A stretch of 64,000 nucleotides of DNA from Boothiomyces macroporosus (GCA_027604185.1 JADGKB010000006.1:1-64000); one strand, 5' to 3'; counted from the first letter of the stretch, positions 21 through 62,853 are shown. A program made the numbers and translations. The notes: generated from the sequence alone by a model not told the origin.

Positions 21-834
21 ATGCTAATTACAGAATATTTTGTTGATTTACAGACACCAACTGGACAAATGAGAGTACATGTATTTCACCCTCCAAAGCT
101 AAACAAGTACCCAGGAGTAGCTGTATTCACCGAGATCTACCAAGTAACTGGCCCGGTACAAAGGTTCTGCAGACAAATCTGTTCACAAGGGTACATTGTA
201 GCAACACCAGAATCTTACCATGAATTCTTGCCTTTGGGTCATGTAATTCCTTATGATACACCTGGCACTGACTTGGGTAACAAGTTGAAAATTGAAAAGA
301 GTCTAAAAGGGTATGATGATGATTCTAAAGTCCTCTTGGATTACTTGGAGTCTCTTTCATCTTGTACGGGCTCTCTGGGTGCTACTGGAATGTGTCTAGG
401 GTAATTGTAATTAACAAAGTGGGCATTTGGCTTATAGATGCGCATTTGATAAAAGAGTAAAAGCAGCAGTATGTTACTTTCCAACGGATATCCATAAAGA
501 ATCTCTTTCTTCTGGAAGCGACTCTTTGGAAAGAACTGGAGAAATCAAGGGAGAGTTGCTAATGATATTTGGGAAGCAGGATACCCATATTCCACAAGAA
601 GGAAGGTTGAAAATCTATACTAATTTGGTTGAAAAGAATGTCTTGTTTAGTTGGTGTGAATTCCAGGCTCAGCATGCATTCATTAGAGACGAGTCTAGTA
701 AGGGGAGGTAAATATTACTAATGAGATATGATCCAGCACTAGCAGAGAATTGCTTTCAGTTATTAAAAGAATTGTTCTTTAGGAAGTTGTATCTAGGAAA
801 CCAAGAAATAGTTGAACCAGAGCATGTCTGTTGA
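21..834 (+). CDS. Dienelactone hydrolase family protein
   Basis: Alpha/beta hydrolase of the dienelactone hydrolase family, 258 aa after removal of two introns (401-419, 19 nt; 708-725, 18 nt). The catalytic Cys sits in GMCLGG, whose last Gly is created by the first splice; the Asp is in KQDTHIP and the His in AQHAF, giving the family Cys-Asp-His triad. The start at 21 matches relatives that begin MLITEHYV-like. The second splice restores the conserved end SKGRYDPALAENCF. AATAAA overlaps the stop. The substrate is unknown; fungal relatives are cytosolic hydrolases acting on lactones or esters. Confidence 0.88.
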
Positions 835-950
835 ATAAAATGAGTAATTAAAAAGTGCGGATAAAAACATATCCTTATTGCATGAATTGTTTGGTACAGC
901 CACAGTAAAAGAGTTGTATGATATAAAAGCCACTCTGAAAAAAGTCAATC

Positions 951-1541
951 ATGGAAAAGGAATCTCCAAAGCTACACAAACGCACTGCATCTGCAAAGAC
1001 AGAAACCGAACTATTGGAAGACATCAACCAGCAAAAAACAAGAAACAAACACATGCACAAATGGTTCCTAGGCCTCATACCAGAATACGAAACCTGTATA
1101 GCAGACTTTAGTTGCTGTACAGTGAAATACGGTATTTCACTAGCTGGCAGGCTATACGTTACTCAAAACTTTTGCTTGTTCTTTTCACACATCAACCAGA
1201 CCAAAGATATAGTACACGTTTCGGAAATTACTGGTCTAAGCAAAGGCAGCACTTTGGGGTTACCAATGGACATTGATTTGGAGACTGACAAAGGTGTTTG
1301 GAAACTACGTAATTTCTTGTTTAGAGATAATGCGTACAAGACTATTGAAAGTATTATTAATGGTTACAAGCAACGGATTGATGAAAAACCAGCGGAAATG
1401 AGCTTAAAAGTTCACAGCGATAATCGCATTCTTCATGTGATTATGGTATTGCTGCTTGCGTTCTTTTTGATTAATCTGCAAATGGTTTTCAAAACTATTA
1501 TAATTATGAATCGCTCTGCAATGCTGAATAAACTATTGTAA
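951..1541 (+). CDS. GRAM-domain protein with C-terminal membrane anchor
   Basis: Intronless, 196 aa. Residues about 35-140 read as a GRAM domain: FLGLIPEYETCIADFSC, then GRLYVTQNFCLFFSH, the order seen in GRAMD/Lam lipid-contact proteins. A hydrophobic segment near residues 162-182 (ILHVIMVLLLAFFLINL) would anchor it, most likely in the ER. There is no VASt lipid-transfer domain, so it resembles the short GRAMD2/3 type rather than yeast Lam proteins. A role at ER contact sites is inferred from the family. Confidence 0.75.
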   Translation: MEKESPKLHKRTASAKTETELLEDINQQKTRNKHMHKWFLGLIPEYETCIADFSCCTVKYGISLAGRLYVTQNFCLFFSHINQTKDIVHVSEITGLSKGSTLGLPMDIDLETDKGVWKLRNFLFRDNAYKTIESIINGYKQRIDEKPAEMSLKVHSDNRILHVIMVLLLAFFLINLQMVFKTIIIMNRSAMLNKLL

Positions 1542-1593
1542 ATAACTTTGTCATGTGATCAATACCTGCAACTAAAATGTTTAAAATATTTTC

Positions 1594-2113
1594 ATGTCCA
1601 CAAATTCAATCTTGAATCAGCGGTTAGCACAGGAACGCAAGCAATGGCGAAAAGACCATCCATTCGGCTTTGTCGCTAAACCAAAAACAATCAACAATGC
1701 AGTAGATTTAACCATCTGGGATTGTACAATTCCAGGCAGAGAAGGCGGGCTATGGGAAGGTACGTTTTACTAACAAGGCGGCCAGTATAAATTAACAATC
1801 AAGTTTCCAGAAGAGTATCCTACAAAACCACCCGTTTGTAGATTCACTCCACCCCTGTTTCATCCAAACGTGTACACCGATGGAGAGAGTATCTGTAATT
1901 AACATAGTCTGTTTATCCATTATAAATGAGAGTCTTAGTTGGAAACCTTCGATTTCAGTTAAAGAGATATTGTTGGGGATTCAGGATTTGTTGGAGGATC
2001 CTAACCCTGATTCGCCCGCTAATGGTCCTGCAAACAAGCTGTTTACTAAAGATAGGAGAGCGTATGAAAAAAATGTTAAATTACAAGTACAGAAATTTAC
2101 TGAATTAAATTGA
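1594..2113 (+). CDS. UBC9: SUMO-conjugating enzyme E2 (Ubc9)
   Basis: 160 aa, the normal Ubc9 length. Introns at 1760-1777 (18 nt) and 1889-1907 (19 nt). The N-terminus [17 protein letters not shown] and the segment [17 protein letters not shown] are Ubc9-like. The catalytic Cys is about residue 94 in GEICLSI, a motif formed by the second splice; the downstream [16 protein letters not shown] helix is conserved. It should carry SUMO from the E1 to lysines in psiKxE sites in the nucleus. An apparent early stop at 1899-1901 lies inside the second intron. Confidence 0.93.
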
Positions 2114-2179
2114 ATTTAATTGTATTGTCCTAGTAATGCTTTTTGTTTTGTTTAATTGGTTCTTTAATAGTTCTCGTAA

Positions 2180-2498: not shown

Positions 2499-4048
2499 AT
2501 GATTTTACAATCAATCCTCCTATTCACTGGCTTACTGGCTCAGAATCCAGACTGCGACCTGCTAAAGAATGTAATCCTACCGAAAATGAACTATGCTGGT
2601 TCGTTTGATTGTTGCATTTATCAATCAAAGTGCCAGAATAATACTGTCACTGAATTGAAAATGCCTCATGCTAATATGAATGGACAGATTCCTGCTGAAC
2701 TTGGGCAACTGAAATCATTGACTTTGGTTGACCTTTCTTACAACCCTTTTGGGTCTGCTGAATTGCCTGACCTAAGTTCCCTAACTAACCTTCAAGCTTT
2801 GTAATTACTATTAATTCTAGGGTTTTAAACGGCACTCGTGCTTCAGGACATTTTCCTACTTGGATTACTAAACTATCCCAATTGGAAATATTGGATCTGG
2901 GTAATAATCAGCTGCAAGGTGCTATTCCAGATTTAAGCGCTTTATCAACCTTGAAAGAATTGCATCTGGGTTTAAATCAATTCAGTAGCTTACCAGATAT
3001 CTCTAAATTATCAAACTTGGAATTACTTGCAGTTTGTGCAAACAATCTATCTGGTCCACTCCCTGACTTGATGTCCAATTTGAAGTTGAAAAAGATATAC
3101 TTTTGTGAAAACATGTTCAGTGGTGCTCTACCAGATTTAAACAAACTGATTGCTTTGGAAGAAGTCTTTTTGCACAATAATTCACTTAGTGGCACTATTC
3201 CAGATATCAGTAGACTTACACACTTGAAATACTTGTTCATTGGCCAAAACCAATTCACTGGTTTGATTCCAGACTTGAAACCATTACAACTGCTTCAGCA
3301 AGTAGATTTCTCCGACAATCCAGTAACTGGATTCAAAGGTGCCTTTGAAGATTTCAAACTATTACCGCATTTCAATGGATTAGGAATTGGACAAACCTTG
3401 CTCAAACTTGATGGGTTCCCTGATTGGTTATTGAATATCGATATGATATATGTGGACCTTGATGGTATCAATTTTGGAATGGACTTGTTTCCAACTATTT
3501 TGAAATGGAAAAACATGGAATCCTTGTCAATGTCAAACTGCGGACTAACAGGACCTGTACCTTCTGATATCGCAAAACTAGAAAATCTATTTTACTTTAA
3601 TGTATCTGGCAACTCTTTAACTGGTACGATTCCTAAAGAAATTAGTTATCTTTCAGATTTGGATTTTATTGATTTGTCCAATAACCAATTATCTGGAGAC
3701 GTTCCAAAGGAAATCTTGAACATGGAAAGGTATCAATCTTCAAATTACTTGTTTGGGAATCAATCTAGTCCACCAACCAAGTCTCATTTGATGATTTATG
3801 TTATTATTGCTGTTTTAGGTTGCGCCGCCATTGGTGGTTTGGCATTCTTTGTTTTGTACAAGAAAAGAAAAGGAAACCAGGTTTATCCACTTGAACAAGG
3901 CTTTGCTACTCCTGAACCAGTAGTACAATTACCGATAACTGATCAAGCAAAAGCAGCTTCACCAGATGATATTTCTGTTTTGCCAGTATTGGCTCCATCT
4001 GGAGTTTCAGACAAGCAACCTACAGTTGAAATTGACAATTCAAAATAG
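2499..4048 (+). CDS. LRR single-pass membrane protein 1
   Basis: 509 aa. One 20-nt phase-2 intron (2801-2820) follows the first LRR. Signal peptide-like N-terminus MILQSILLFTGLLAQ, then the cap motif DCDLL...CC, about a dozen plant-type LRRs (LxxLxLxxNxLxGxIPDL), a membrane span near LMIYVIIAVLGCAAIGGL, a basic stop-transfer KKRKG and a short tail ending near VLPVLAPSG. It is a paralogue of the four genes at 15.0-22.4 kb but has a shorter tail and an N-terminal signal. It has no kinase domain. A surface recognition role is inferred from architecture. Confidence 0.85.
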
Positions 4049-4705: not shown

Positions 4706-5526
4706 ATGGACCTAAAGGATTTTCAGGAACTGCTGAATCAAGAGAGTATAGATTTAAAGAAGCTGTCTCTCTTGGCCATTCAAGGTATTTTTCGCTAACA
4801 AGGCATTCCTGATTCAATTCGACCTAGAGTTTGGGATGCATTGTTAAGTACAAAACAACAAAAATTGGTACAGAATTATGAATCGGATTACTACATGAAA
4901 TCACTCAAGGGTGAGAGTAATCGATACTTTAATCAACGTAAACAGTACTTTCGTAAGGATTTACAGTACCTCTTGGAAAATGTTGTTTCGCTGTATTTAA
5001 TGAACCATTCAATAGAGTACCATCCCTCTCTCGTACGAATGTTTAACCCAGGTGTCTCTATGCGGTCCATTGCTGATGGTTTACCATACAGAAAAAGAAG
5101 TCTATTTCTGCTTTGAAAAAATAATGGAAATTGTGAATTCTATTGATTCGCAAAAGGAAGTATCCAACTTTATGATAATGTTCCGCATGATACTGCCGGA
5201 CTTGTATAACCATTTTCAAGAGGAAGAGATTAATACCCGTGAATGGGTGTTGCCGTGGTTTGAAACCCTGTTGGCAAAACAGCTGCCTATAGAAAATGTA
5301 TTGCGGTTGTGGGATAGGTTGATTTGCATGAATGATATCTTTTACGTTTGCTTGGCGATATTTGTGCACTGCAAGGAAGAGCTGGAAGGTAATTGTTGTT
5401 GATGTAGAACTGGAACAATCTGAAATACATGCGTTTTTGCATAGACTGCCGTTACTGAATATGGATATAGTGTTGTCATTGGCAAATGAAATCAGGCAGG
5501 ATTACGATATATCTGAATATATTTAA
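4706..5526 (+). CDS. TBC-domain protein, TBC1D7-like, catalytic fingers missing
   Basis: 254 aa with introns 4785-4802 (18 nt), 5033-5051 (19) and 5389-5407 (19). N-terminal FQELLNQESIDLKKLS, GIPDSIRPRVWDALL and the C-terminal PWFETLLAKQLP...RLWDRL are TBC landmarks. The Arg finger (IxxDxxR) reads FRKDLQY, and the Gln finger (YxQ) reads YHPSL, so GAP activity of the usual kind is unlikely. Small size and both losses resemble TBC1D7, the third subunit of the TSC complex; TBC1D13 is the other relative I considered. The TSC role is an inference. Confidence 0.65.
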
Positions 5527-9594: not shown

Positions 9595-9691
9595 AATACT
9601 ACAAGAGATTTAAAGTCGAATAGACACTAGAATTACTTGCCTTTTACTCTAGTTACATGCTAATAGAGTTGTATTCTTCACATAAGTTAAT

Positions 9692-9828: not shown

Positions 9829-12536
9829 ATGACTATGAGTTTCACCGAACTCTTAAACAACACATTATCTCCAGGTAAGATTAATTAACCCAGTCGCCGC
9901 TACTCGTGAAGGAGCTCAGCAGCAGTTAGAAAACTATTCCAAAGAAAACTTTGTAATTAATTATTAAGTTAGCCGCAATTCATGGGAATGTTGTGCCAAG
10001 AATTAGGCAACGAAGGAATTCATCAGTCAATTAGACAGAGTGCCGGGTTGATGATGAAAAACGCAATTGAAGCCAAAGTAATTGTTTGCTAACCAGAACT
10101 TTGAGCGACAAAGGGAACTCTCTGAACGTTGGATGGGAGTGGATCAGAATACAAGGAACCAGATTAAAACAATGATTTTGCATTCGCTTGGATCTACTGA
10201 TGCTACAGTTGGAACTGTTGCTGGACAAATCGTTGCAGCAATCGCTAATATTGAATTGAACCTTGGGCAGTGGGGCGAACTGATTGGACTTTTATTGGAA
10301 AGAGTACAAAATGCTACTACATCGTTATCTAAAAAATCTGCACTACAATGTCTTGGGTTCATTTGCGAAGTTGTGCAGTCCGATATCTTGACCTCCCAAT
10401 CAAATGCAATCTTGACTGCTGTGGCTGATGGTGCTGCAAAGAAGGAAACGTAAATATTAATTGATCTAGTAATCCTCCAGAAGTAAGATTTACTGCTCTT
10501 CAAGCGCTTGCCAATTCTCTTACTTTTATCAGAGAAAACTTTAATAGAGAAGAAGAACGCAATTATGTTATGCAAATTGTTTGTGAAGCGACTCAAACCC
10601 CAGACTCTGCTGATGTCCAAGTTATGGGTTTTGAATGTCTGGTAAAGATTATTGCAATGTACTATGACTTTATGACTGTTTATATGCAAAAGGCATTGTA
10701 CGGGCTTACCTTGGTTGGAATGAGACACAACAACGAAAGGGTAGTATTGCAAGCTATTGAATTCTGGTCTACTATTTGCGAAATTGAATGCGATCGCAAC
10801 TATGCTATTCAAGATGTAATATAAATTAACCATAGGGAGATACGTCTATGCCTTGCTATCACTTTGCTATGGGTGCTGCTCCAGAGACTATTCCTGTATT
10901 ATTGCACATCATGACTACTCAAGAGGAGGATGAAGATGGTGACGAGTGGACTCCTTCTATGGCTGCTGCTACCTGTTTGCAATTGTTTGCAAGTGTTTGC
11001 GGATCCAACATTATTCAATATGTATTGCCATTTATCAAACAACATATCGTACACGAAAACTGGAGGTATAGAGACACTGCATGCATGGCTTTTGGTTCCA
11101 TTATTGATGGGCCAGAGCCACAGGAAATGTCTCAATTGGTTACTGAAGCGCTTCCGGTCTTACTACAACTGGTTAGTGACCAATCTCCAGTTGTTAAAGA
11201 TTCAGCAGCATGGACTTTGGGTAGAATTTGCGAAAATTTACTTGAAGTAATTCAGCCTCAGGAAATTCAAGCTATTGTAGATGCAGTTATTAGGGGATTG
11301 AATGACACACCAAAGATTGCTGGAAGTTGTGCATGGAGTATTACTTGTTTAGCTGAACAGTTGGGAACAAAGAATCACCAAGATGCAACCAGCTCACTCA
11401 GTCCATACTTTGAACCGCTAGTTGGTGCTTTGATGACTGCATCCCAAAAACCTGGAGTTGATACTAATTTCCAGCAATCGGCATTTGAAGCCATTTCAGT
11501 TCTGATTGAAAACAGTGCAAAAGATTGTTCACCTCTAATTGCGAATTTGTGCCAGATGACCGTAGACAGACTTGCTTATACTGTTACTCAGGTTGGTAAC
11601 TTGGTTGGAGACGATGAAAGACGTGCTTACTACCAAAACCAGGCTAATTTGTGCAGCATTTTGACTAGTATCATCCATTATGACCCTGTTCCTATTCGTG
11701 CTGGTGCTGATATTATTATGCAAAATCTTTTGGTTGTTATCAGCAATGCTCATAAAGATTCTACAGTCAAGGAAGAAGCATTTGTTGCAATTGGTGCCGT
11801 TGCCAGCGCTGTTGAAGGAGACTTTTTACGCTACATGGATTCTCTGATGCCGTTTATTTTGGCTGCTTTAACCAATTATGAAGACTACACTGTCTGCTCT
11901 ATTGTTTTGGGTGTCTTGGGAGATGTTTGCAGAGCATTGGGTGATTCAATCTTGAGCTACTGTGAACCGCTAATCAATTCTATTGGTCAACTATTAAGCT
12001 ATCCTAATCTTCACCGCAAAGTCCGTCCATCATGTCTTTCTGCAATAGGTGATCTTAGTTTGGCAATCGGTGGTAAATTTGAAGTTTATGTTCATCCTGC
12101 GATGGGAATTATTGGAGATATTTCCAACCAGTTAATGTATATTCCTCAGGTAATTTTATCTTTATTCTAGTTTACTCAAGAACAATATGATTATGTCGTT
12201 GAAACCAGAGAAGCTATTGCTGAGGCTTATGTTGGTATCTGCCAAGGGTTGAAGCAAGCTGAAAAGGGGGCTTTGCTAGTAAACTATGCTAATCAAATAT
12301 TTGGATTCTTGGAAGTTGCAACCCAAGAAGCTGAAAAGAGCGAATCATATGTCAAGATTATGATGGGTTTGCTTGGAGATTTGGCAGATACTATTCCGCC
12401 TGGTCACTTGAAAGCATTCTTTGGGGCTCCATGGGTTGCGCAATTTATCAAGGATGTCAAAACTGACCGTCACTGCAACCCTGAAACCAAGAACTATGCC
12501 CGCTGGACCAGAGAACTTATCCGAAGACAACTTTAA
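9829..12536 (+). CDS. KAP95: Importin subunit beta-1 (karyopherin Kap95)
   Basis: 862 aa after six introns: 9875-9893 (19), 9953-9972 (20), 10078-10096 (19), 10450-10469 (20), 10816-10835 (20), 12150-12170 (21). Length matches yeast Kap95 (861 aa). HEAT-repeat helices run through the protein, with the acidic EEDEDGDEWTPSMAAATCL loop of HEAT 8 that contacts importin alpha, and RYRDTACMAFGSI just after. The end YARWTRELIRRQL is typical. It carries importin alpha-bound cargo through nuclear pores and releases it on RanGTP. Confidence 0.95.
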
Positions 12537-12863: not shown

Positions 12864-15026
12864 ATGCAATCAACAAACCTGAATTACTGGCGATTAAAAG
12901 TAGACCATGGAAGGCAGACTTGGCACTACCTCGAAACAGAAAAGGAACGCAAGGAAACCCCACAGTCAGATATAGATCGGTACTGGCTTGGTCTTAAAAC
13001 CTCAATGAAACAGCTGTCAAAACCCAAAACTCCTCTTGAATCTGCACGCAACGGGTTATTATTTTATCAGCATTTACAAACACAAGATGGACATTTTGCG
13101 GGCGAATACGGCGGTCCAATGTTTTTGATTCCTGGACTGGTTATCGTAATGTACATTACTAAAACACCGTTTCCGCCTGGATACCGCGCTGAAATTGCTA
13201 GATATTTGGTAAACATGGCACACAAGGAGGATGGTGGATGGGGAATACACACAGAAGGTGAATCGACTGTTTTTGGGACTAGCTTGAATTATGTCGCGTT
13301 AAGGTTGTTGGGCTACCCTGCTGACCATCCTGTTTGTACAAAAGCGAGAAATACACTATGGAAGCTTGGAGGTTCAACCGGGGTACCTACTTGGGGCAAG
13401 TTTTGGCTATCGGTTATTGGGTTGTATGAATGGGAAGGACAGAATCCAATTCCACCGGAATTATGGATCCTTCCGTATTTCGCACCGGTTCATGCTGGGC
13501 GAATGTGGTGTCATACCAGAATGGTGTACCTGCCAATGTCGTACCTTTATAGCAAACGGTATGTTGCCCCAATTGATGATTTAATTCTGTCGCTAAGACA
13601 AGAAATTTATGTTGAAGAATACTCTGAAATCAACTGGTCAGCACAGAGGGACAATGTTGCTGTAAAAGAACTGTATGCACCTTCTTCACCGATCTTGAAT
13701 TTTGTCAATGGAGTGTTGAACATTTACGAAAAGCTGCCAAATGGGTTTATCAGAAAGACTGCTGTGGATGAGGCACTTCGTCAAATTAGGTTTGAAGATG
13801 AAAACACATTGTTTTTGGACATTGGGCCTGTCAACAAGATGATGAATATGTTGATTGTGTATATTGAAGATGGTCCTGACTCTGAGACTTTCAAGAAGCA
13901 TGTTGATAGAGTGCCAGACTTTATGTGGATGAGTGGTGAAGGAATGATGATGAATGGCACCAATGGCTCTCAACTGTGGGATACCGCATTTGCAGTACAA
14001 GCAGCACTTGAAGGCGATTTGGTAAATGAGCCAGAGTTTAAAAAGATGATTATTCATTCGCTAGAGTTTTTGGACGACATGCAGGTAGATTTCATTTAAT
14101 CTAGATCCGAGAGAATATCCGAAATGCAGCAGAGTGCTATAGACACGAAAGGAAAGGGGCTTGGCCGTTTTCTACCAGAGATCAAGGGTATACAGTGTCA
14201 GACTGTACTGCAGAAGGTTTAAAGTCAGTGTTACTGTTACAGAAACTTTCGTATGCTGATTACTAACTCTAGATTCACACCAAAGTTGGTTGGCAAAGAA
14301 CGACTGTGTGATGCCGTGAATGTATTATTGACCATGCAAAATGCTGATGGTGGGTTTGCAAGCTATGAGCTGCAAAGAGGTCCAGAATGGCTAGAATTGT
14401 TCAACCCTGCTCAAGTGTTTGGCAAGATTATGGTCGAATACAGTTATCCAGAGTGCACAACTGCTGCTCTGCTTGGATTGACTACCTTTAAAAAACTGTA
14501 TCCAAACCATCGAACAGCCGAGATTCAACAGACTATAGACAGAGCCATTCAGTTTATTTTGAAATCGCAAAAAGAAGACGGCTCATGGTACGGAAGCTGG
14601 GGAATCTGCTTCACTTATGCAATGTTTTTCGCCATGGAGAGTTTATCTAGCGTCGGCCAAACTGTAAAGCAAGAACATATCCGTCGCGCATGTGAATTCC
14701 TCGTTTCTAAACAAATGGCAGATGGTGGCTGGGGTGAAAGCTACAAGTCTTGTGAAACTGGCGAGTGGCATAATCTTCCTACTTCACAAGTTGTGCAAAC
14801 TTCATGGGCACTTTTGGCATTAATGGCTGCAAAATATGACAACAAGCAAGTAATCAAGAAGGGCATTCAACTTATTATGAACAGGCAACAGGGTAATGGT
14901 GAGTGGCTGCAGGAGAATATTGAAGGTGTGTTCAACAAAAACTGCATGATATCATACCCAAACTACAAATTTGCGTTCCCTATCTGGGCATTATCAAGGT
15001 ACTCCAAGATTTATGGTAACGAATAA
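12864..15026 (+). CDS. ERG7: Lanosterol synthase (oxidosqualene cyclase)
   Basis: 706 aa; introns 14085-14104 (20) and 14251-14272 (22). N-terminal [18 protein letters not shown] matches fungal Erg7. QW repeats are visible ([27 protein letters not shown]). The catalytic acid is in VSDCTAEG, and [18 protein letters not shown] is conserved. It converts 2,3-oxidosqualene to lanosterol at ER or lipid droplets. The first splice gives [13 protein letters not shown], the second LLLQKLS-FTPKLVG. Convergent with the next gene, 19 bp between stop codons. Confidence 0.94.
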
Positions 15027-15045: not shown

Positions 15046-16874
15046 CTAAAATGGTTTAGAAATTAAAGGGGGTTGATCTTCTACTTCTATCTTTGCAGTT
15101 TCCAACCCAGTGCTTTCATGTTTTTGAAATTCTATAACTGGTGGTTGCGTGATTTCTTGTTGACTCATCAAATCAGCGTATGGAGACTGTGGAGGCGAAA
15201 TAATAGGAAGTTGCCCAATTTCTGCAGATATTGGTTGAACGTGTTGATACGGCGAAACCTGGCTGATTCTTGAGTTTGAATTTTGGCTGCCGTGTGGGGA
15301 ATCGTTTCCTACCGGTGTCTGAGGTGAGGGAACATAAGAGAGCCTTTGAGGAGAATAATTGTTTACACCTTGATTTGGAGATTCTTGAAATGCAATTGGG
15401 CTGCTTGCAAATGAAGACGATACGGTTTGTGTTGGGGACATGATTGGTTGAATTGGACTACTAGAGAATTGGGTGTATTGATCATAACCTGCTGTGCTTA
15501 ATCGGTTTTGGTTCTGATAAATGGAAGGGTTCTGCAAATAAGCATCTGGCGAAGCGACGTTTGTTTGGTAAACAGGTTGCATAGGTAAAGCGTTAACTGG
15601 TTGCTGAATCCCTTGCGTTGGGACAGAATTAGTTTGATAAGGTGCAGTTTGTAGTACAGTTTGCGGTGCAGTCTGTAGTGCAGTTCCATATGGCAGGTTG
15701 GCTGGAGCAGTGTTTGGATACACTGGCTGAGGATATGAAGATTGCCCAAGTGGTTGTGGAGATACCTGATTGTTTTGGAAGCCATAGTTTGGGAATTGCT
15801 TTTTGCGTTGATTGTTTCTATAAAAAGCAAAGCCAATAATTGCCAACACCAATATTATTCCACCCGCGATAACTATATAAACTAGATTTCCAACACCGGA
15901 TGTACTTGGCAATGGAGTTTGATCACTGAATTGAAAATTCTGAGAATTGTAAGTAGGCATTTGCAGAATGGCTGGTGGTACCGTTCCTTCAAAGTGGTTA
16001 TGGCTAAGGTCAAGAGCTGTCAATTGCTTCAGATTTGCAATTTCTGGAGGAATACTGCCAGATAAATCGTTATGATCCAAATAAAGAGTCTGGAGGTTGC
16101 TCAAATATTGAATGTCAGATGTAACAGGGCCTGAAATATTGCAATTGGAAAGCGAAAGGTACTCTAAATGAACTAGGCGAGTGATATCTGGAAAAACTGT
16201 CCCAGGCATTACTGTATTGTCCAATATAATGTCGTACAAGCTAGTCATGCCCAACAGCCAGGTTGGGAATGAGCTTTGTTGAAAATTGTTGAATCCAAGA
16301 TACAAGTAATTCATATTTGTCAAAGCACTAAGGTCTGGAATGGCGCCTGTCAATTTGTTTGACATTACATTGAGGTAAAACAATTGGGGTAAAGTGGATA
16401 GGTCTGGTAGTCTACCACTGAGATTATTGCTGTGCAAATTCAAGCTTTTCAGTTGGGTAAGTCCGGTAATCCAAGTTGGAAAACTGTCAGTCACTTTTGC
16501 ACCAAAAACACCTCTAAAGTTAGCAACAATTACAGATATGCAAGATTGGTCAAACTGCCAAGGTTGGGAAGCGGATTGGCTGGAAAGGGATTGTCAGAAA
16601 GGTTAAGATGCACCAAGTTTGTTAATTGAGTCAGTTGGGATGGAATAATACCAGTCATTCCACTGTGATTCAAGTACAAATGTGTAATGTGTCCGCTGGC
16701 ATCGCAGTACACCTTGTCGTTGTCACAGCATTGTATGTTTCCCGGGTACTGTAATGCTTTTGCAATGGTGTTTGTTAATAGCTGGCAGTCACTGGAGTTG
16801 GTATTGCTTGCCATTAATTGTTCAAATCTCCAGTGCGCTTTTTGGGCGAAGCGTGGATCAGGATCTCGGTACAT
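15046..16874 (-). CDS. LRR single-pass membrane protein 2
   Basis: 602 aa from 16874, or 582 aa if translation starts at 16814 (MASNTNSSDC), which matches its paralogues. Intron 16514-16533 (20 nt, phase 2). Order: DCQLL...CC cap, about nine LRRs, span near GNLVYIVIAGGIILVLAI, then RKK and a Gln/Pro/Ser-rich tail of over 200 aa. The tail holds QLPIISPPQSPYADLM and two QPP motifs (QPPVI, QPPLI). No classical signal peptide with either start. Probable surface sensor by architecture. Confidence 0.82.
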
Positions 16875-18916: not shown

Positions 18917-18938
18917 ATGGATTTATTCTGTAACCAAT

Positions 18939-48267: not shown

Positions 48268-49644
48268 TTAATTTTCAGGATAATCATAATGAGGATAGTA
48301 ACCTGGGTAAGGCGGTCCTGAATATCCAGGGGCATAATAGTATGCATCGTGGTAAGTTGCAGGAGGAAAATAATAAGGGTGATATTCATACCATCCTCTC
48401 TGATCCCCATGATGCCAAGTAGGTGAATCTGCAAAAGTAAGATTGGAAATTGGAGGTAAAAAAGTTACATGTTCTTGATCTACATTAATTGGAATTACTG
48501 TTTTGTACAGCTGGAGAGTTTTCTGAAAGAGTTAGACGCTTATTTGTGGTATTCACAGAGCTTAATTGCAAAGCCTGTTCTTTAGATGATGGGTTAATTT
48601 GTGCTCTTGGAGTGGAATTAGATTCAGAGTATTCAGATTCAGATTTTGGAGACGGTTTCAACTTTAACCCTTTCTCAATACATTTGATTTTTCCTGATCT
48701 CTTATGATGTAGTTTTCCCTTGTGTCTAGAGCAATTAGTTATCTTCCGTAGTTCTTTGTCAGAGGGTGTCGGCGGGTCCATTTCCCGCAAAGCCAAGTCA
48801 ACTTTGAGATTTTTCGGAAATATCTCGGATTCATTTTTTGAAACACCTGGAGCAGCAGCGACTCTTTTCTTGCCACAAATATCAAACTGCGGAAAGTCTA
48901 CTACCCATTTTGATCTATGTTTGAACTTGTTTACCTTGGTTGGCGTCTTAATTTCATTCTTACTCCCTGGTCGGCAAAAGATCTGGATATTATTGACGGT
49001 ACAGCGCGGTTGTACTTTTTCGAGTCTCCGTAATCCCCGGAATATATTCGAAAAGACTCTGTCAGTATTTCGTTTAGTTTTGTTACTTTACTGAAAGGAT
49101 TCTGAGGGTCTGTAATTGCACTAAGTTAGAAATATGTACTTCATTGTGTATAAAACAATCTTTAGCTTATAGCACCCTTCTTTTCTCACATATATGTCTG
49201 GAAAGACAAGAAATGAGCTGAAACCAACATTGGAATCATTTTCAGGATCAATCAGCTCATGAATGGCAGATTTTGTAGAACCACTTAATATAGGAGTTTT
49301 CATATCTTCCAGGAAGTGTATTTCACGAAAGTTCAGCTCATCTACTAGTACAGCAACAGCAAAGTAAAAATCTGGGATTTCACTTTTCTTCCGGGGAACA
49401 TGTACCTGTACTACGCATCAACAAAGATTACCTATTGCGGCGGGCTCGAGAATTCGAAGATATTCTATTGTTATTTACATTTACTATCTTTGCCCTCCTC
49501 CACTTTAATACCTTGGCTTGGACTTTGTCTTAAAATCATAGAGTATTCTGATGGTATGGATATAGGCTCATCAGCACGCTATAATTAGGATCATTATACA
49601 CTATGATTACTATTATCGCTAATGATAGTATTTCTTCTTTCCAT
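48268..49644 (-). CDS. Velvet-domain protein 4 (VosA-like)
   Basis: 418 aa. Introns 49579-49599 (21), 49465-49484 (20), 49411-49431 (21), 49121-49139 (19), 48915-48934 (20), 48480-48498 (19). Blocks: YSMILRQSPSQGIKVE, RILEPAAIVQVHVPRK, FLVFPDIYVRKEGCYKLKIV, IISRSFADQGVRMKLRRQPR. Exon 3 is again 33 nt; exon 2 is 94 nt, one codon shorter than in its relatives. The last intron moves the end of the protein into a Tyr/Pro-rich stretch (GYSGPPYPGYYPHYDYP). Confidence 0.86.
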
Positions 49645-50893: not shown

Positions 50894-52894
50894 TTACTGT
50901 TCTTCTTTCACCCATGGCCATTGCTTTTTTTCCAGTGGTGGAGGCTGGCGATCATAGTCGCCTGGATGTGAAGGTAGAGGGGGATTACCAGATGGAGGAT
51001 ATGGGGGGCGATGGGCATCTCCTCTGTCACCTACATTGTCTGGCTCTCTGTGTGGAGGTCTGGGGTAGTAGGGAGGGTATGCTCCGGGAGGAGGGTAGTA
51101 TGGAGCATGATGCGGATATGGTGGTGGGTAATGCATATCGTGTGGTGGTCTTGGTCTGACAGGATATGGCGGTCTGTAATAATCTTGCTGGCCTTCCTTT
51201 GGTGGATAATGGGGAGGATATCCATAAGGAGGATAAGGATAGTAATACTGTGGTGGTGGTCGGTAGTATGCTGGTGGCGGGTATGGTGCACTTGGGTGAC
51301 TCAGTAGTTGAGGTGGAGATCCCCGCTTCTCATAGCCAGAGTGCAAACTATGTTCATCATTTCTAGGTGGATTCCTTGGTTCGGGAGCTTCACTATCAGC
51401 TGGGGTTGCAATCGGTGGCAAAACATTTGACTTGCCATCTATTGAAGGAAGTGCGTAGTCTCTGGTGATGTCTCTTGGACGCACCTCTAACCTTCGCTTC
51501 TTTACAGTCTGCGTGCTTGGATCCAGTTCTTTCGATGGAGAGTTGTCATGCCTTACCATACCATCCTGATCAATTTTTTGTTCTCCACTCCCTTTCGAAT
51601 GAGGAGAATCAGAGATTGGTTTTGGCTGATAATTGTAGTCATTTTTGAAATCCTCTGATACAGAAGAGTTGGAAATATTTACTCTCTGGGACGAATGATA
51701 TTCAGCAGCCTTCTGTAGTACAGCAAGCGGACCTTCGTCAGCGTGAACCTCAGGATAGCCTGCAGTTTGTGGCTTTTCTTCATACTGTGTCTTTATGTCT
51801 TTGCTATCGAAAGATCTGGCGTAACTTCCTTCACGTTCTAAATATGGCATTGGTCTTGGTGGTATTTGATCTGGCCGAACATTTCTAGGAGGATAATTAG
51901 ATTTTCCAGTTGAATCATACGGATAAGGTGGGTAGTTTGGATAGTATCCAGGAGGTGGCCTGTAACCCGGCTGAGAGTATGTTTCATACGATGGCGGCCT
52001 GGCTGTGTAACTTGGAGATTGAACGTATGCACTTTTTCCGGAAACTTTGGCTACTTCTGATTTTTTTGTTTTCTTGGCTTTTTTGCCGCCCGAAAAAGAT
52101 TCATCATCTGAGCTTTCGTTATCCTTTTTGGCTCCATTTCTACAATTAACTAAGCGTACCTATGCTGCTTGCGTAGTTTCAACTTTAGGCCCTGCTCGGC
52201 AAACGATCGCGAAAGCAGTGTGGCAGCAGCTGGGGCAGGAAAGCCTGCATTAACACAAAATTACTCTTTGACGAATAAACTTCAAATGGCTCGGTCATTA
52301 TACTTGCTTTCTGCGTAACCTTCCTTGGAAGCAATGGATCTCCGTTGCCCCTACATATAAGCGGTAAAATACCCCTCCATCCTGTATAGAGCAATCTTCA
52401 ATCTAAATACTCCTTCCTTTCTTACTGAAATGTCGGGGAAAACGAAAAATGATCCAAAATTTGGTGGATTTTCTGGATCTTTCAAACTGTACATTGATGA
52501 TGCGAGAACACCTGATAAAATTCTTGTAGACTCATCCGCAAGAAAGGAAAGCTCTTCAAAAGTTTGATGATCTACAAGTGTTGCATAAGCGAATAAAAAC
52601 GGTTGAAAACGCAACCTCGCGGCTTCTGCAGAAACTGCTTCATCTTCGTGAATTTTCAGTTCAACTAGAGTAAATAATGCAAAATACCAATAGCCGCAGG
52701 CTCTAGCGGCTTCTTATCTCCTAGAATCAATGGTTGACTTACCAACTTTGTCTGTTATCGCAGAAACACGAGCGTGTATGGGACTTTGTCGTAATATGAT
52801 TGTGTATGTACCGTCTGTTGGATTCGCAGCTTGTGAATTCTACGACTGCTTAAAAACAATGTACCCTTTCAAGATTTCCGTCTACGTTCGCCAT
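50894..52894 (-). CDS. Velvet-domain protein 5 (VosA-like, longest)
   Basis: 622 aa. Introns 52840-52864 (25), 52721-52742 (22), 52665-52687 (23), 52349-52370 (22), 52245-52264 (20), 52140-52159 (20). The clearest velvet match: YTIILRQSPIHARVS, KPLEPAAIVELKI, FQPFLFAYATLVD, GSFFVFPDISVRKEGVFRL, TLLSRSFAEQGLKLKLRKQH. The tail of about 410 aa has Lys-rich signals (KKAKKTKKSE), a Ser/Asp segment with RPRDITRDYALP, and a Pro/Tyr/His-rich end. Introns are slightly longer than in neighbouring genes. Confidence 0.9.
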
Positions 52895-53159: not shown

Positions 53160-55936
53160 ATGATTTTTAGTTTCAATTTTTTTGAAATGTCGAAATCCAC
53201 ACTTGCAGTCACAGTAGTTTCAGTTTTTGTATTGCTCCTGTCGATATATTCCAAATTCAACTATGGGATTGATCCAAAGCACTGCGATGGGACGTATATC
53301 TATCCTGGATATTCACTCTTGGATTTCAAAAGCTCCAACCCAGCATTAAATCGCCGATATCAACTTTACAAGCACCACGAAGCCGGTCGAGATGTGATAT
53401 TTAGCTAATACCAGGTCAGGGGAATTCCCGTGCTATTCATTCCGGGAAATGCAGGGAATTATACTCAAGTAAAGTCGTTAGGTTCAGTTGCCTACAGATT
53501 GTGGTTAAAACGTAACCAAAGTGACCATCCGCTGGATTTGTATACTAGTAATACATGCTTAAATCAGTGAATACAAAAGGTGAATTGGCAGCGTTTCATT
53601 CTAATCTCTTGGAGGACCAAGCGTTTTATGCCAACGAAGCCATCCAGTATATTTTAGAGTCTTATCCAAAAAATATACAACCAGAAAGTGTGATTATATT
53701 GGGGCATTCGATGGTATATTTTGGTTTACTGTAGGGAGGGATTGTTGCGCGTTCCATCCCCAAACTGAAAAATTACCAGCCTGGAACCATCAAAGATATT
53801 TTTACGCTATCATCGCCGCACAAAGAAGCACCGATACCAATTACGCGTTCAATAGTTAAACTATACAGGAATTTGAATACATTCTGGAGACAGGAACACA
53901 GGGATGGAGGAGGTTTGGAGAATATTACATTCGTATCAATTGCAGGGGGGTCAAGAGATACCATTTTAGATTCTGATACAACCTATATCAACAGTTTTGC
54001 GGATCCTTCACGGTCATATCATGGTATTTCAACTGGAATTCCCCATGTTTGGACATCAGGTGATCACGAAGGTAAGTTGATATAACATAGGGGCTGTTTG
54101 GTGCGACCAAATTCTCCAAAAGATTGTTTCTGGGGCATTTGAAGTTTCAAAAAAACCAAATGCTTCTGTGAATGAAAGGATGGCTCTATTGAATCACTTG
54201 TACGTTGGCCCCAAAGCTCCTTTACCACTACCAAAGTTTGGAGACGTGAAGATTCATTTGAGAAACCTTCGTGTATTGCTCAATGAAAACTACGTAGAAT
54301 TGCCAACTTTGACAACGGCCGAATATGAAGACCGATATATTCGGATTACACTCCCGCCTTATGAAACTCGCCACATGTACGAACTGCATCTCATTTCTAA
54401 TATTGAAAGTCTAAATGTTCTAGGGTGTGCTAAGGAGACTGTAGATTCTGAACTTCAATGTAAGGCAATTAACGGTTACATTAATCCTCTTCCAGTACCT
54501 GATAAAGGAGATTTCAAGATTGTATTCAGAGATCCAATGAATATGAAAACACCCAACAGGAGTTTTTGGGTTTCACTGGATATGTCTGTGGGAGGCCATG
54601 ATGAGTTAGATACAATTGTATTCCATGTTCCTCCTCAAAAATCTGGGTTTCTGTATGCAGATATTAGATTTCCCCAAAAAAGGGTGGAAAATGATCTTAC
54701 TACCAGTAAACAAAAACTAAATTAGAGCTACTTTTAGGGGCTGGCTTAACTATAACGCCTTCCTCTGTTAAAACTAATGTCAAATTTCTTCCAATCAAAG
54801 ATCCAATAGTCAAATACAAACTGAAGATTCAGCGGTTGAAAGGAAAATCTGCCGTTACAGGATTAGATCATCAAATACCAACCAATTTTCCAATGTTGGT
54901 AATGCAAAAAATTGCGAACGAGTCAAGACCAATATCATTGGTAAATAACCAGGTTGTATTCTTTTATGTTGATCGAAACCACGAATTAAACAATGGACTT
55001 GAATTTGATATATGGTCAGATCCGCACACAGATCCATATGAATTCTTGTTACAGGTAGATGTACTGGGTTCTTTGTCAGCATTTACGACGTTCTTCAAAA
55101 CTATCTGGGTGTCTTTAGGGTTTTGTTCTGTATTGCTGTCATTTACAAGTGATAAATTGGAATCTCCTTATGAGACACTCAATGCTCATATGAATATTAG
55201 ACTCTCGGCAGTGATGCTGGCCATATCTGCTATTCATTCAGTTTTTGGAGGAATGATGTCGGATGCTTTAAATGGCAATCGTGATTTGATATTCATCCCA
55301 TTGTACACAGTTCAATTCTACTTATCGTCTGGATTGGTAAACGGGATATTTCTGGTGGTCTATAAATTGGTGGAAGTTGCTGGAAGGAACAGCCTGATAA
55401 GTCACGTCACAATCAACAGTCCATACTTTAAACTTGGTTTTATTGTGTTGCTAATGTTCTTGCAGCTTGTGCTATCCACCACCTTATTACTTCCATTTGT
55501 TTTATTCCATTCCTTCATGGTGTGCGCAATTTCACTTGGGAAATACAAAACTAAGGTCATCAAAAGCTAATGATAGAAGTCAAACATTTTACAAATCCTA
55601 TGCTTGATTCTACAGATTATTTTAGTAGGATTCAAATTTCCTTCGCTAATACAATCATTTAGCTATCTGGTTGGAGGAATACCAAACCCATTAGGAAACG
55701 ATCTGTTTGGTTTCGCTATTCACGTAATTTTCTCAGTGTACTTGACTGAAATTCCAAAACGTGAATATCAATTAAAGTATCCCGTATGGGTCATAACGGC
55801 GATTATATTTATTTATGGGTGGAAGTATACGTATCTGGTCAATGAGCTCGGATTGTTGTTCATGACACTTGTCATTGTCTCTGATAGAATACGGCTCAGT
55901 AAAAAGGACAATAGTGAATTCTTAAAAAATGAATAA
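53160..55936 (+). CDS. BST1: GPI inositol-deacylase (Bst1/PGAP1)
   Basis: 884 aa from 53160 (a start at 53187 is also possible). Introns 53394-53414 (21), 53548-53567 (20), 53714-53734 (21), 54072-54090 (19), 54706-54725 (20), 55556-55576 (21). N-terminal anchor, [20 protein letters not shown], catalytic GHSMGGIVARS (Ser about 170, spliced inside the motif), [16 protein letters not shown] with the likely catalytic His, and a multi-span C-terminus. It removes the inositol acyl chain of GPI anchors in the ER, fitting the GPI-type surface protein seen at 5924. Confidence 0.92.
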
Positions 55937-60600: not shown

Positions 60601-61222
60601 AGACGCTGGACTTTTTGAGATTCCATTTCCAACTTTTGTGTCAACCTCGCTAGTGCTTCCCGGGCTTCTTGGTCCCTTTGGCTGAAATGCTTGGTTATTT
60701 CCAGTCTGTTTGCATTTTCGTTTCTAATGCTTTCCTGCAGACTATCTACTTTGGCAGATAACGTTGCTATTAGATACTTGCCACTCTGCAACTCATTCTC
60801 AACAACCGCCCTAGCCCTTCTTTCCTGCAGTATTTGGTTTTCAGAAAATTGCAGTTTAGTTGAAATTTCCTCTGGCATAATTCTGGGATAAGGGTCAGTG
60901 CTGATTAATGGGAGAGTAGTAAGCGGCTCTATTCCTGCTATCGTTGGTAATGGAATTAAACTGTTTGTAATTGTTGCGGGTACAGCTGGGACACTCGCTG
61001 GTAGGGTTTTGATTGGCTTCAATGGAGGCGAGTCGTTTACTCCCAGCACAATCTTTCTATAAGCTTCCCTTTCGTCAATCTTTTCTTGTTTTTTTCTGCA
61101 TTAAATTACCTGTACCTCTTCTTTACTTCCTCGTTCTGCTGGATAAGAAAATCTTTCAGTTCCTTTGCTTGCTGCTTGACTTTTAATTGTCTGCTGTCTA
61201 TATCATCCCATTTCAATGACAT
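57642..61222 (-). CDS. Long coiled-coil protein (1186 aa)
   Basis: One 20-nt intron near the 5' end (61096-61115) joins VKKR to KKQEKIDERE. Start at 61222 (MSLKWDDIDSRQLKVKQQ). A Pro-rich linker (residues about 60-105) precedes roughly 1000 residues of nearly unbroken coiled coil, with VENELQSGKYLIATLSAKVD and QILQERRARAVVE, then a short Pro/Ser-rich tail. The pattern suits a cytoskeletal, basal-body or tethering scaffold; no specific family recognised. Confidence 0.75.
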
Positions 61223-61266
61223 TTGACAATCTAAATAATTTCCATTGTTTTTTTTTTGTTTACAGA

Positions 61267-61552
61267 ATGGCTCAAGGACAGCATAAACCAAAATCCAGCG
61301 CAAAGCAAAACAAAGTAGTTAAAAACAATAGAGTGTCTAGAGGTAATACAAGCTAATCCAGGGATACGAAAGGCGCCGAAATCACAAGCCTTGCAAAAGG
61401 AAATTGCAATGCAAAAGAAGCTATCAGCCAGGAATATTCAGAATACAGAAAAGCAAATGTCAGTCAAAGCCGCTTCTACTGGTAAATTGACGATAATGAA
61501 ATCCATCGCAGACAAGGCTGCTAAAGAAACTACAGACAAGAAAAAGAAATAA
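61267..61552 (+). CDS. LYDG10/UPF0390-like small basic protein
   Basis: 88 aa; intron 61343-61361 (19 nt). MAQGQHKPKSSAKQNK matches the MAQGQ start of the Leydig cell tumour 10-kDa (C19orf53) family; Lys-rich throughout, with GIRKAPKSQALQKE after the splice and a KKKK end. Family members are nucleolar in animals, with no defined reaction. The start codon is 44 bp from the divergent coiled-coil gene. Confidence 0.75.
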
Positions 61553-61572
61553 ACTTGTGTATTTTGAATATA

Positions 61573-62853
61573 TTAATATCCTAACGAATCGGTTGGATCT
61601 TCTTGGATCAATTCGTCGCCTTCTCTTAATTTAAACAGCTTTTCTTTTTCTTCCTGTTCTTGGGCAACTTCATCTTCTAAATCAGGCAATCCAAAATGCA
61701 GTATGGCTGCAATACCAGTCAGTTGAGTAAGCTGCTCCCCGGATGTGTGCAAACTAGAAAATACATGGACACTTGCTCCATTTTCTTTGGCTTTCTCCAC
61801 CAGAGCAATATACCGTCTTCTTTCTTGTATATTCGATGATCTTGTCAACACCAACTTACCTAAAGAGTCCATCGGTGACCATAAGAGTTTGAATTGCACC
61901 CCGTTCACTAGCCTTCAGCACATACTCATAGCCATAAAATGCCTTTGACGGATCATTTCCTAGAGTCCTATAGAATTCTTCCAATGCTTTGATTTCTTTT
62001 TGATATTTGGTGTCAGATAGTTTAGATTGTACTTGCGGCTCTTGCAAAATCTCTTGCAACGCGTGTTTATGTCCAGAAGAAGAATGAACGAGAATTATTT
62101 TATCTCTATGATCCAAAATTACTTTTTGCTGTTCTTTAAGGGCTAAATCAATGATATACTTGTACAATGCCTCCTTTATAAACCCTTTGTTAGTATAAAT
62201 CACCTGGGCTGGCGATAATCAATACTTTGACGATATCAAAATTGATATGATGAATGATTCCTTGATATACTTGATGAAAGAATCTAATGACTCCCTTGTC
62301 ATGATCGGTAGTAGTTCCTCTTCTCTTTTTAGGAACATTTGTCTCTATTCGTTGCCTAACGATAGTCATATTCTCCGTAACAAGACAAATTTGAGCCAAG
62401 CCTTCCTGTAGTACCACTGCACCGATATCTGCCTTGTTTTGGACATTGCAACAGTCATTGATCCTATCAAGATGAATAATATCCCACTCTTCTTTTTCAA
62501 TGGTAAACGGACGATGTAATTCCAAATCTGAATTAGTTTAATTTACCAAGAGTGTGATACTGTCCCATTTTGACATATTTGTTTTCCTCGATATTCTTCC
62601 CATTCACTCTCAGTACGGAAGCCTGTACGTCGAAAAACACAGTCTCTACTTTAATAGTGAGAGTGGTCTTTTGGGAAAGTTTTTCTGTTGACCCAGTGTT
62701 GGTTTCGGATACCACTCTTCTAACAGTAGTGGCTTTTAGAATGTCATCCTTGAACAGCAAGTTGTATGTGTGCCACAGGTCCTCTGTATCTTCCGCTATC
62801 AGCTTTACGAATCCAGAAGAATTCTTTTCCAATTTCTTTGAAACTAATTTCAT
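61573..62853 (-). CDS. DOM34: Pelota/Dom34 ribosome rescue factor
   Basis: 407 aa; introns 62528-62546 (19), 62185-62203 (19), 61841-61859 (19). N-terminal Sm-like domain (GFVKLIAEDTEDLWHTYNL, TTVRRVVSETNTGS), central domain (NVPKKRRGTTTDHDKGVIRF, VYQGIIHHINFD, IIASPGFIKEA across a splice) and a C-terminal eL30-like domain (HTSGEQLTQLTGIAAILHF). It lacks the GGQ of eRF1, as expected. With Hbs1 it splits stalled ribosomes. Confidence 0.95.

Follow-up and report, generated by a model that had tools for sequence, protein, structure and literature searches.

The window, the 64,000-nt stretch of DNA analysed here, contains genes on both strands that are interrupted by very short putative introns. 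These were called with a coding-potential gene finder, used either with all lengths from 10 to 120 nt weighted equally and GT/AG ends as the sole requirement (flat prior) or with a learned motif and length prior (motif-trained run). On the plus strand, a gene of the dienelactone hydrolase family contains a 19-nt (401..419) and an 18-nt intron (708..725, missed by the gene finder), both with junctions within the Pfam DLH domain (residues 18-240 of the spliced protein). The UBC9 gene follows with introns of 18 nt (1760..1777) and 19 nt (1889..1907), and its spliced product aligned with the PDB UBC9 chains without gaps. A 20-nt intron in a leucine-rich-repeat (LRR) gene (2801..2820) was called in both the flat-prior and motif-trained runs. 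The RabGAP-TBC gene has three introns from the motif-trained run: one restored the frame just upstream of the TBC domain at residues 30-214 (18 nt, 4785..4802), one has its junction within this domain (19 nt, 5033..5051) and one restored the frame at its end (19 nt, 5389..5407). Six introns were located in the importin-beta gene: 9875..9893 (19 nt), 9953..9972 (20 nt), 10078..10096 (19 nt), 10450..10469 and 10816..10835 (20 nt each, flat prior) and 12150..12170 (21 nt, with an in-frame TAG). Two introns of a squalene/oxidosqualene cyclase family gene (20 nt, 14085..14104; 22 nt, 14251..14272; motif-trained run) lie within the SQHop_cyclase_C domain (369-700), and a gene without named function carries one of 19 nt (31369..31387, flat prior). 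On the minus strand, a coiled-coil-like gene has flat-prior introns of 18 nt (32209..32226, GT...AG ends and branch checked) and 21 nt (32957..32977).

In the second half of the window, the plus strand carries an adaptor/coatomer gene, which we take to be delta-COP-like. Two of its introns (20 nt each, 40609..40628 and 40835..40854) are within the Clat_adaptor_s domain (21-107) and three within the Adap_comp_sub domain (244-466), namely 41290..41308 and 41475..41493 (19 nt each, flat prior) and 41956..41975 (20 nt). The PGAP1-like gene, also on the plus strand, has a 21-nt intron at the start of the PGAP1 domain at residues 70-291 (53394..53414, motif-trained run), three within this domain (20 nt, 53548..53567; 21 nt, 53714..53734; 19 nt, 54072..54090) and a further one of 20 nt (54706..54725, flat prior and motif-trained run). 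The remaining genes are on the minus strand. In a gene without named function a 21-nt intron (38492..38512) was called by the flat-prior and motif-trained runs, and another motif run preferred 54 nt. A second gene without named function has two 20-nt introns (52140..52159 and 52245..52264, motif-trained run). The motif-trained run placed a 20-nt intron (61096..61115) close to the 5' end of a gene whose second exon is 3.4 kb long; two other runs chose 14 nt here, so its 3' end is uncertain. Finally, the Pelota/eRF1-like gene, covered by Pfam eRF1 domains over residues 1-368, is interrupted by three 19-nt introns at 61841..61859 (motif-trained run), 62185..62203 (flat prior) and 62528..62546 (flat prior, GT...AG ends and branch checked).

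Two groups of paralogs, all on the minus strand, kept homologous intron position, phase and a length of 19-22 nt, at 32-46% protein identity in the LRR set. Four tandem LRR paralogs share place, phase and length of a 20-nt intron (16514..16533, 18396..18415, 20308..20327, the third from the flat prior, and 22147..22166), and the intron sequences differ. Among three velvet genes, the first has a 20-nt intron that is homologous in position and phase in all three (44534..44553) and three introns at positions homologous in the three genes (20 nt, 44748..44767; 21 nt, 45051..45071 and 45105..45125); a 22-nt intron (45223..45244) came from the motif-trained run and paralog comparison. Homologous positions are occupied in velvet gene 2 at 46602..46622 (21 nt), 46800..46818 (19 nt, flat prior), 47096..47115 and 47149..47168 (20 nt each), and in velvet gene 3 at 48915..48934 (20 nt), 49121..49139 (19 nt, flat prior), 49411..49431 (21 nt) and 49465..49484 (20 nt), with a further one (21 nt, 49579..49599) from the motif-trained run and paralog comparison. 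One intron is specific to velvet gene 1 (20 nt, 44639..44658) and one to velvet gene 3 (19 nt, 48480..48498), both from the motif-trained run.

When the window was analysed together with 20 other 10-kb stretches using the flat prior, 106 of the 234 introns were 18-22 nt long, and in the window alone 20 of 38. With six decoy end pairs, GC-AG and AT-AC among them, 53 of 1299 fell in this size class (5-11 of 206-230 for each pair; Fisher p = 2e-57); the peak expected of U2-type introns belongs to GT-AG ends. The other 128 flat-prior calls were evenly spread and fewer than in the decoys; some of them may be genuine longer introns. A plain scan for GTA...YTAAY...AG spans, compared with 60 third-order Markov resamples, revealed 26 spans of 19 nt (resample mean 3.4, maximum 8) and 15 of 20 nt (mean 2.8, maximum 7). 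Spans of 18 nt showed no excess over the resamples (4 vs 2.7), and the 18-nt introns therefore depend on protein homology. With learned motif and length prior, 66 of 67 introns in the window fell at 18-22 nt; three of these 66, which follow one another directly at 28632-28688 within a 'gene' of 66 nt, are plainly artefacts. When the motif was combined with the flat prior, 250 of 310 introns measured 18-24 nt and 60 had other sizes. The intron load amounted to 368 in 276 kb, about 1.7 per kb of coding sequence. For nearly all introns the length distribution is narrow and lies below 25 nt, and the predicted introns of this chytrid, mostly about 18-22 nt, are near the shortest on record for any organism. 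The preliminary description had given a range of 18-25 nt; the ultrashort class was confirmed, and the range proved tighter, 18-22 nt with a mode of 20. Of the 79 introns it counted, all seven that were checked (401-419, 708-725, 1760-1777, 4785-4802, 9875-9893, 32209-32226 and 62528-62546) have GT...AG ends and a YTAAY-type branch, including the four introns described as 18 nt long (708-725, 1760-1777, 4785-4802 and 32209-32226).

The conserved proteins, as predicted from the sequence, require removal of the intervals. Of 328 introns, 247 would break the reading frame if retained and another 71 contain a stop in frame; the latter come from the 81 with a length divisible by three, a class in which the finder is biased towards those with a stop. 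After intron removal the junctions were gapless and UBC9, importin-beta, Prp8, Pelota, PGAP1 and others were restored, UBC9 by taking out its 18- and 19-nt introns and importin-beta and Prp8 by taking out six each; 9/9 spliced proteins exceeded the Pfam cut-off. The spliced importin-beta N-terminus, at 9875..9893, was colinear with a Globomyces pollinis-pini protein. For 10 of the 12 introns of importin-beta and Prp8 the encoded residues were absent from the public proteins of relatives, and two were read as coding. The residues encoded by 9953..9972 (junction gapless), 10078..10096, 10450..10469 and 10816..10835 are lacking in the protein of Boothiomyces sp. JEL0838, and at 12150..12170 both P0002 and the JEL0838 protein show a gap of exactly 7 residues. 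The public importin-beta of JEL0838 includes 9875-9893 as coding sequence (VRLINP). Judged by its proteins, the host is a chytrid fungus adjoining Boothiomyces (Rhizophydiales, Terramycetaceae) with a 15.2-Mb genome. Importin-beta was identical to that of JEL0838 at 845/850 positions and Prp8 to that of JEL0866 at 2303/2336, and for these two compared proteins the closest named homologs came from this family. The genome, called fungal-like before, can accordingly be assigned to a chytrid close to Boothiomyces.

Intron geometry was rigid, and this is new here. In the motif-trained set, 320 of 327 introns have their branch A 13-15 nt downstream of the first G, and in 325 of 327 it precedes the last G by 4-6 nt. 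The 5' end reads GTA, mostly followed by A, with G at +5 in only 19%, and the branch motif is YTRAY. Among motif-free calls (14-40 nt, no motif or length preference), YTRAY was present in 108 of 140 and lacking in 32. In these 108, the first G and the branch A were 13 nt apart in 44, 14 in 38, 15 in 7 and 12 in none, so that 89 had this U2-matching motif near the 3' end at 13-15 nt. The 1991 GT...AG spans of the whole window showed no preference for a branch distance of 13-15 nt. The distance between first G and branch A thus has a sharp floor at 13 nt. An 11-13 nt gap between 5' site and branch had been estimated in the preliminary description, close to the 12-14 intervening nt found in 320/327 introns, and its statement that a polypyrimidine tract is absent agrees with the 3-5 nt from branch A to AG in 325/327.

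The splicing parts that were checked (U1, U2, U6, SF1, U2AF65, Prp8, Cwc25) look ordinary in their predicted sequences. U1 was detected with the 5' end ATACTTACCTG and a score just under the gathering threshold (68.8 vs 69.5), U2 in two copies over the cut-off, both with GTAGTA, and U6 over the cut-off with ACAGAGA. Of the U2AF, SF1, U1 and U2 genes named earlier as worth examining, U1, U2, SF1 (SF1-HH over the cut-off) and a U2AF65-like protein with three RRMs (match 230.7, below the cut-off of 310.3) were found; U2AF35 was not found among the 14 of 17 zf-CCCH matches examined and was the exception in the handful of factors sought, which also included Prp8, Isy1 and Cwc25. The Cwc25 N-terminus MGGGDLNLKKSWHP is identical to the human chain. 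The 13-nt floor, the ordinary snRNAs and factors, the conserved lengths in paralogs and the absence of most intron-encoded residues from the relatives' proteins had all escaped the preliminary description.

Altogether, this chytrid near Boothiomyces very probably has ordinary spliceosomal introns of the U2 type (GT-AG) at these intervals, nearly all of them shrunk to 18-22 nt. Their earlier designation as spliceosomal is supported by the GT-AG peak, the branch motif and the restored proteins; excision would occur from RNA, for which protein homology served as a stand-in. U1 would pair first with positions +1 to about +6, and SF1, then U2, would bind the branch motif. Because the branch is 3-6 nt from the AG, there would be no space for a U2AF65-bound pyrimidine tract, and SF1/U2 pairing with the nearby YAG would set the 3' end. 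U1 and U2 would lie side by side on about 12 nt, a crowding that would call for prompt handover from U1 to U6. The proposed handover and steric constraints are drawn from general features of the spliceosome. The 13-nt floor may mark the shortest distance at which the U6/5'-site helix can still meet the U2/branch helix within a single active site, with deletion bias pressing length down against it. Assembly would proceed by intron definition, because several introns flank kilobase exons (4.2 kb in Prp8; 3.4 kb, 57642-61095).

That the excess is a product of the gene finder, or of mis-annotated in-frame AT-rich inserts, is hardly credible: the learned motif and length prior did create at least three obvious artefacts (28632-28688), but the peak persisted without motif under the flat prior, was absent in decoys, reappeared in the plain motif scan, and homologs lack the inserted residues. 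DNA-level excision resembling that of IES, or assembly and sequencing indels, would also yield short, frame-breaking intervals in most genes, as observed. This origin is nevertheless very improbable given GT-AG ends and a branch motif at fixed distances, the lack of such a class with the six decoy end pairs, the canonical U1, U2, U6 and splicing factors that this genome also encodes and homologous positions in diverged paralogs. Furthermore, since the JEL0838 protein reads 9875-9893 as coding, a second, independent assembly contains that interval too.

If removal by splicing is accepted, the introns could be recognised across exons, so that U1 and U2 never bind one tiny intron together. The roughly 12 nt between first G and branch A look tight for simultaneous binding, yet many genes combine a single intron with exons of great length (of 149 confident genes, 33 are single-intron; Prp8 has an internal exon of 4.2 kb and the gene at 57642-61222 an exon of 3.4 kb), which makes exon definition unlikely. 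A stronger competitor, to which we grant about one chance in three, is that the tight size reflects selection on the gene, through economy or decay-triggering retention, and that the spliceosome would accept much longer introns. The checked splicing parts look unmodified, so nothing obvious blocks longer introns, and the in-frame stops in 71 of 81 divisible-by-three introns would be expected if retention is policed, although the finder favours such introns. Simple economy, however, does not predict branch distances as narrow as the lengths. More speculatively, the otherwise canonical spliceosome of this chytrid lineage might act as a molecular ruler that holds nearly all introns, about 20,000 if the 368 in 276 kb are scaled to the genome, at 13-15 plus 4-6 nt. 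In that case 13 nt would be the general physical limit of a U2-type spliceosome without modifications, and lower values would be confined to lineages with altered factors such as Cwc25 (Stentor); this generalisation is tentative and less likely than not.

No report of chytrid introns of similar size was found in the literature searched. According to the consulted passages of PMC4035089, PMC9505925 and PMC10245619, comparable sizes occur mainly in chlorarachniophyte nucleomorphs and some ciliates, as noted before, to which mikrocytids (16-17 nt) should be added. In the passages on the heterotrich Stentor coeruleus, a free-living organism that like the chytrid has uniform tiny introns, the 15-nt introns have the branch A at position 10, 5 nt from the last G (PMC9505925). 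Stentor introns of 15-16 nt span 9-10 nt from first G to branch A, whereas the chytrid has 13-15; instead of intron position 10-11, the branch A of the chytrid occupies position 14-16 in 320/327. A distinct Cwc25 N-terminal plug is reported for Stentor (PMC9505925), in contrast to the unchanged chytrid N-terminus. Mikrocytos mackini shares very uniform ultrashort GT-AG introns (PMC10245619), but this parasite is described there with 16-17 nt, only 224 introns and a highly reduced spliceosome (17-19 proteins), whereas in the chytrid introns are much more numerous, with 368 in 276 kb, and all sought factors but U2AF35 were found. Within the fungal lineage, the short introns that come nearest are those of microsporidia; in the sections of PMC10245619 consulted, microsporidia have few introns per genome and a reduced spliceosome, whereas each kb of coding sequence in the chytrid holds about 1.7 introns. 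Other fungi and chytrids share GT-AG ends and the YTRAY branch, but mean lengths in the published excerpts are far longer: Cryptococcus neoformans averages 63 bp (PMC8476143) and Rhizopus oryzae 79 (PMC2699053); the literature passages searched gave no figure for Batrachochytrium. In size band, uniformity and intron density, the chytrid resembles the nucleomorphs of Bigelowiella natans and Lotharella oceanica, the latter with 1,011 GT-AG introns, most of 18-23 nt (PMC4035089, PMC10245619), although these are remnant endosymbiont nuclei of 0.37-0.61 Mb and the chytrid has a 15.2-Mb fungal genome.

The seven intervals identifiable from the preliminary description (401-419, 708-725, 1760-1777, 4785-4802, 9875-9893, 32209-32226 and 62528-62546) were all present in the sequence, each bounded by GT and AG and containing a branch of TTAAY/CTAAY type. 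Introns were then called with a gene finder that used coding potential alone and accepted any GT...AG intron of 10-120 nt under a flat length prior and without a branch motif. With these settings, 20 of the 38 introns in the window had a length of 18-22 nt, as did 106/234 when twenty 10-kb stretches on other contigs were included (the assembly comprises 15.2 Mb in 216 contigs, and its contig 6 begins with the 64 kb of the window). The same finder run with decoy end pairs placed few calls at 18-22 nt: 10 for TG/GA, 6 for CA/TC, 11 for GA/TG, 10 for AC/GA, 11 for AT/AC and 5 for GC/AG, pooled 53 of 1299 (Fisher p = 2e-57 versus GT/AG). A plain scan for GTA...YTAAY...AG spans, compared with 60 third-order Markov resamples, counted 19-nt spans 26 times against an expectation of 3.4 and 20-nt spans 15 times against 2.8, with no excess at other lengths, 18 nt included.

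With a self-trained motif model and no length preference, 250 of the 310 introns called measured 18-24 nt. When a length prior was added, the share was 360/368, and 66 of 67 introns in the window were 18-22 nt long; this last run serves annotation, not proof, and is not free of artefacts, among them three introns called back to back at 28632-28688. The ultrashort class described previously was recovered, while the range of 18-25 nt given for it narrowed to mostly 18-22 nt in the window. In the flat-length calls a second, longer class was not visible, since GT-AG calls at 23-120 nt (118) were fewer than those of TG/GA, the decoy recounted (209), although individual long introns may occur.

The branch motif YTRAY was found in 108 of 140 introns of 14-40 nt called without motif and with flat length. 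Within these 108, the branch A lay 13 nt from the first G in 44 introns, 14 nt in 38, 15 nt in 7 and never 12 nt, other values occurring at most twice each; its distance to the last G was 5 in 45, 6 in 35 and 4 in 7. As a control, the first of these distances was taken over all 1991 YTRAY-containing GT...AG spans of the window, which still include the true introns; there it was spread over 6-36, with 93 at 12 and 152 at 13. The larger motif-trained set gave the same picture, with first distances of 13 (147), 14 (140), 15 (33), 16 (5), 12 (1) and 17 (1) and second distances of 5 (171), 6 (141), 4 (13) and 7 (2). Visual inspection of the four introns of 18 nt in the preliminary description gave spacers of 13 and 4. 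Both spacer distributions are narrow, and intron length thus amounts to two almost constant spacers added together. In the larger set the 5' site reads GTA in 93% of introns, with A at +4 in 63% and G at +5 in just 19%, and 280 of 327 introns have a pyrimidine at position -3.

Removal of the introns restored conserved proteins. UBC9 without its 18-nt and 19-nt introns has 160 residues and aligned gapless at both junctions to solved UBC9 chains. Importin-beta without six introns matched 845/850 aligned residues of karyopherin beta from Boothiomyces sp. JEL0838 and 557/864 of the Globomyces pollinis-pini protein; in the latter alignment a one-residue gap lies about 3 residues from the 10450-10469 junction, the junctions themselves being gapless. 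The 21-nt importin-beta intron 12150-12170 contains an in-frame TAG. An exact seven-residue gap at this place was shown only by the JEL0838 protein and by P0002, a metagenome relative; the Entophlyctis protein P0006 lacks 7 residues, divided between two nearby gaps, and P0003 lacks 8. On a separate contig, Prp8 has six introns of 19-22 nt, and its spliced product agreed with that of Boothiomyces sp. JEL0866 in 2303/2336 positions. Nine spliced proteins of the window were compared with Pfam, and all nine scored above the curated cut-off, many junctions falling within domains; the matches were DLH, TBC, cyclase, adaptor/coatomer, three velvets, PGAP1 and Pelota/eRF1. The 149 confident genes contained 328 short introns, of which 247 change the reading frame, 71 have an in-frame stop and 10 could be read through. 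The 71 stops fall in 81 introns of 3n length; the finder is blind to open 3n introns, and selection for stops is therefore not claimed.

Intron length was also conserved between paralogs. Four tandem leucine-rich-repeat genes (15046-22435, minus strand; 32-46% identity) each have a single phase-2 intron at the same position, 20 nt long in every copy and differing in sequence. Three tandem velvet-factor genes (44110-49644), members of a family of fungal regulators that has expanded locally, have four intron positions and phases in common, with lengths by position of 20-21, 20-21, 19-20 and 20-21 nt.

Following the preliminary description, which had pointed to SF1, U2AF, U1 and U2, we looked for splicing components elsewhere in the genome, the window itself giving zero matches from Rfam at gathering threshold or from ARAGORN. 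Two U2 genes, one U6 gene and one U1 gene (slightly below gathering score) were found, with canonical key motifs: ATACTTACCTG in U1, GTAGTA in U2 and ACAGAGA in U6. The two U2 genes have the branch-binding region in common and diverge further downstream. SF1 scored above cut-off and its domains look intact. A U2AF65-like protein with three RRMs scored below the family cut-off because its exons matched separately, in a family search that also scores in two bacterial controls; U2AF35 was not recognised among the 14 of 17 zf-CCCH matches examined. Prp8, Isy1 and Cwc25 were found as well. From residue 43 onward, the core of Isy1 agrees with ISY1 chains of known structure, and its first exon (about 1259-1299 of stretch L036) contains two candidate introns 1-4 nt apart, either with a micro-exon or nested; a changed Isy1 N-terminus like the one reported for Stentor was considered but is not claimed. 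Two 3.1-kb stretches, on contigs 49 and 100, have the same gene models, and one of these contigs may therefore be a duplicate or a second haplotype.

Several other origins of the short intervals were considered. Assembly indels were rejected, as the intervals have GT-AG ends and a branch at fixed distances, and the decoy end pairs show no such size class. A gene-finder artefact was likewise rejected, given that the peak persists without motif or length preference and is missing from the decoys. Excision at the DNA level was also rejected, in view of the fixed GT-AG/branch geometry, the canonical snRNAs in the genome and the homologous positions in paralogs. We read the elements as U2-type introns whose recognition would proceed by intron definition, at the tightest spacing that still works. 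With about 12 nt between first G and branch A, the U6/5'-site and U2/branch helices would abut with almost nothing between them, and U1 would have to hand over to U6 promptly. The distribution stops sharply at 13 and tails off above it, a shape consistent with deletions pushing against a hard limit, which may set intron length. Alternatively, economy or quality control instead of a spliceosomal limit could set the size; we consider this less likely than not, and it is not fully exclusive of the hard-limit reading.

The claim of a fungal-like genome was borne out, as the closest named matches of Prp8 and importin-beta belong to Boothiomyces (Chytridiomycota, Rhizophydiales, Terramycetaceae). 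In a protein collection clustered at 90% identity, the best named Prp8 match among those listed was JEL0866 (99%), followed by other chytrids such as Spizellomyces and Powellomyces (86-87%, partial coverage) and Batrachochytrium (84%); importin-beta matched JEL0838 (99%), Globomyces (64%), Gorgonomyces (52%) and Batrachochytrium (46-47%). The JEL0866 Prp8 (P0047) is without the residues encoded by five of six introns and, in the comparison with 712-1023 of the Prp8 stretch L027, has seven additional residues precisely where the first junction lies, LSFTNCR, probably a stop-free, unspliced 21-nt intron retained as coding. Similarly, the JEL0838 importin-beta (P0167) is without the residues of five of six introns; the sixth is read as VRLINP, the translation of 9875-9893. 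Via this 19-nt intron read as coding, an upstream gene carrying Pfam PF01169 in precomputed domains is joined to importin-beta (window 8776-9893). Comparison of these proteins indicates that the short introns are partly present already in public gene models of close strains, with 2 of 12 read as coding and two genes fused at one. Every intron below 30 bp was discarded in a survey that covered over 3000 eukaryotic genomes (PMC10639083), which hence could not have detected ultrashort introns in chytrids. Given this filter, the two introns read as coding and the gene fusion, such lineages are likely to have wrong gene models and wrong numbers of introns on record.

No description of ultrashort introns in chytrids was found in a search of open-access literature. 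As far as the open-access literature shows, introns of this size, here recognised from sequence, appear to be new to the fungal kingdom. The fungus can be grown in culture, and the minimum-intron question could be tested in a fungal setting, namely which distance from 5' site to branch is required and which changes are needed to go lower; transformation is reported for another chytrid, Spizellomyces punctatus (PMC7213984). Introns this short had previously been described in remnant nuclei, in a group of parasites and in ciliates. The present genome is that of a fungus and contains them in thousands, and the splicing components looked for give no sign of a stripped spliceosome. Published introns are 18-23 nt in nucleomorphs (PMC4035089), 16-17 nt in mikrocytids (PMC10245619) and 15-16 nt in heterotrichs (PMC9505925). 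Stentor, a heterotrich whose introns have the branch A at position 10 or 11, is reported to possess a distinct Cwc25 plug (PMC9505925), whereas the N-terminus of the chytrid Cwc25 is identical to the human chain over 14 residues.
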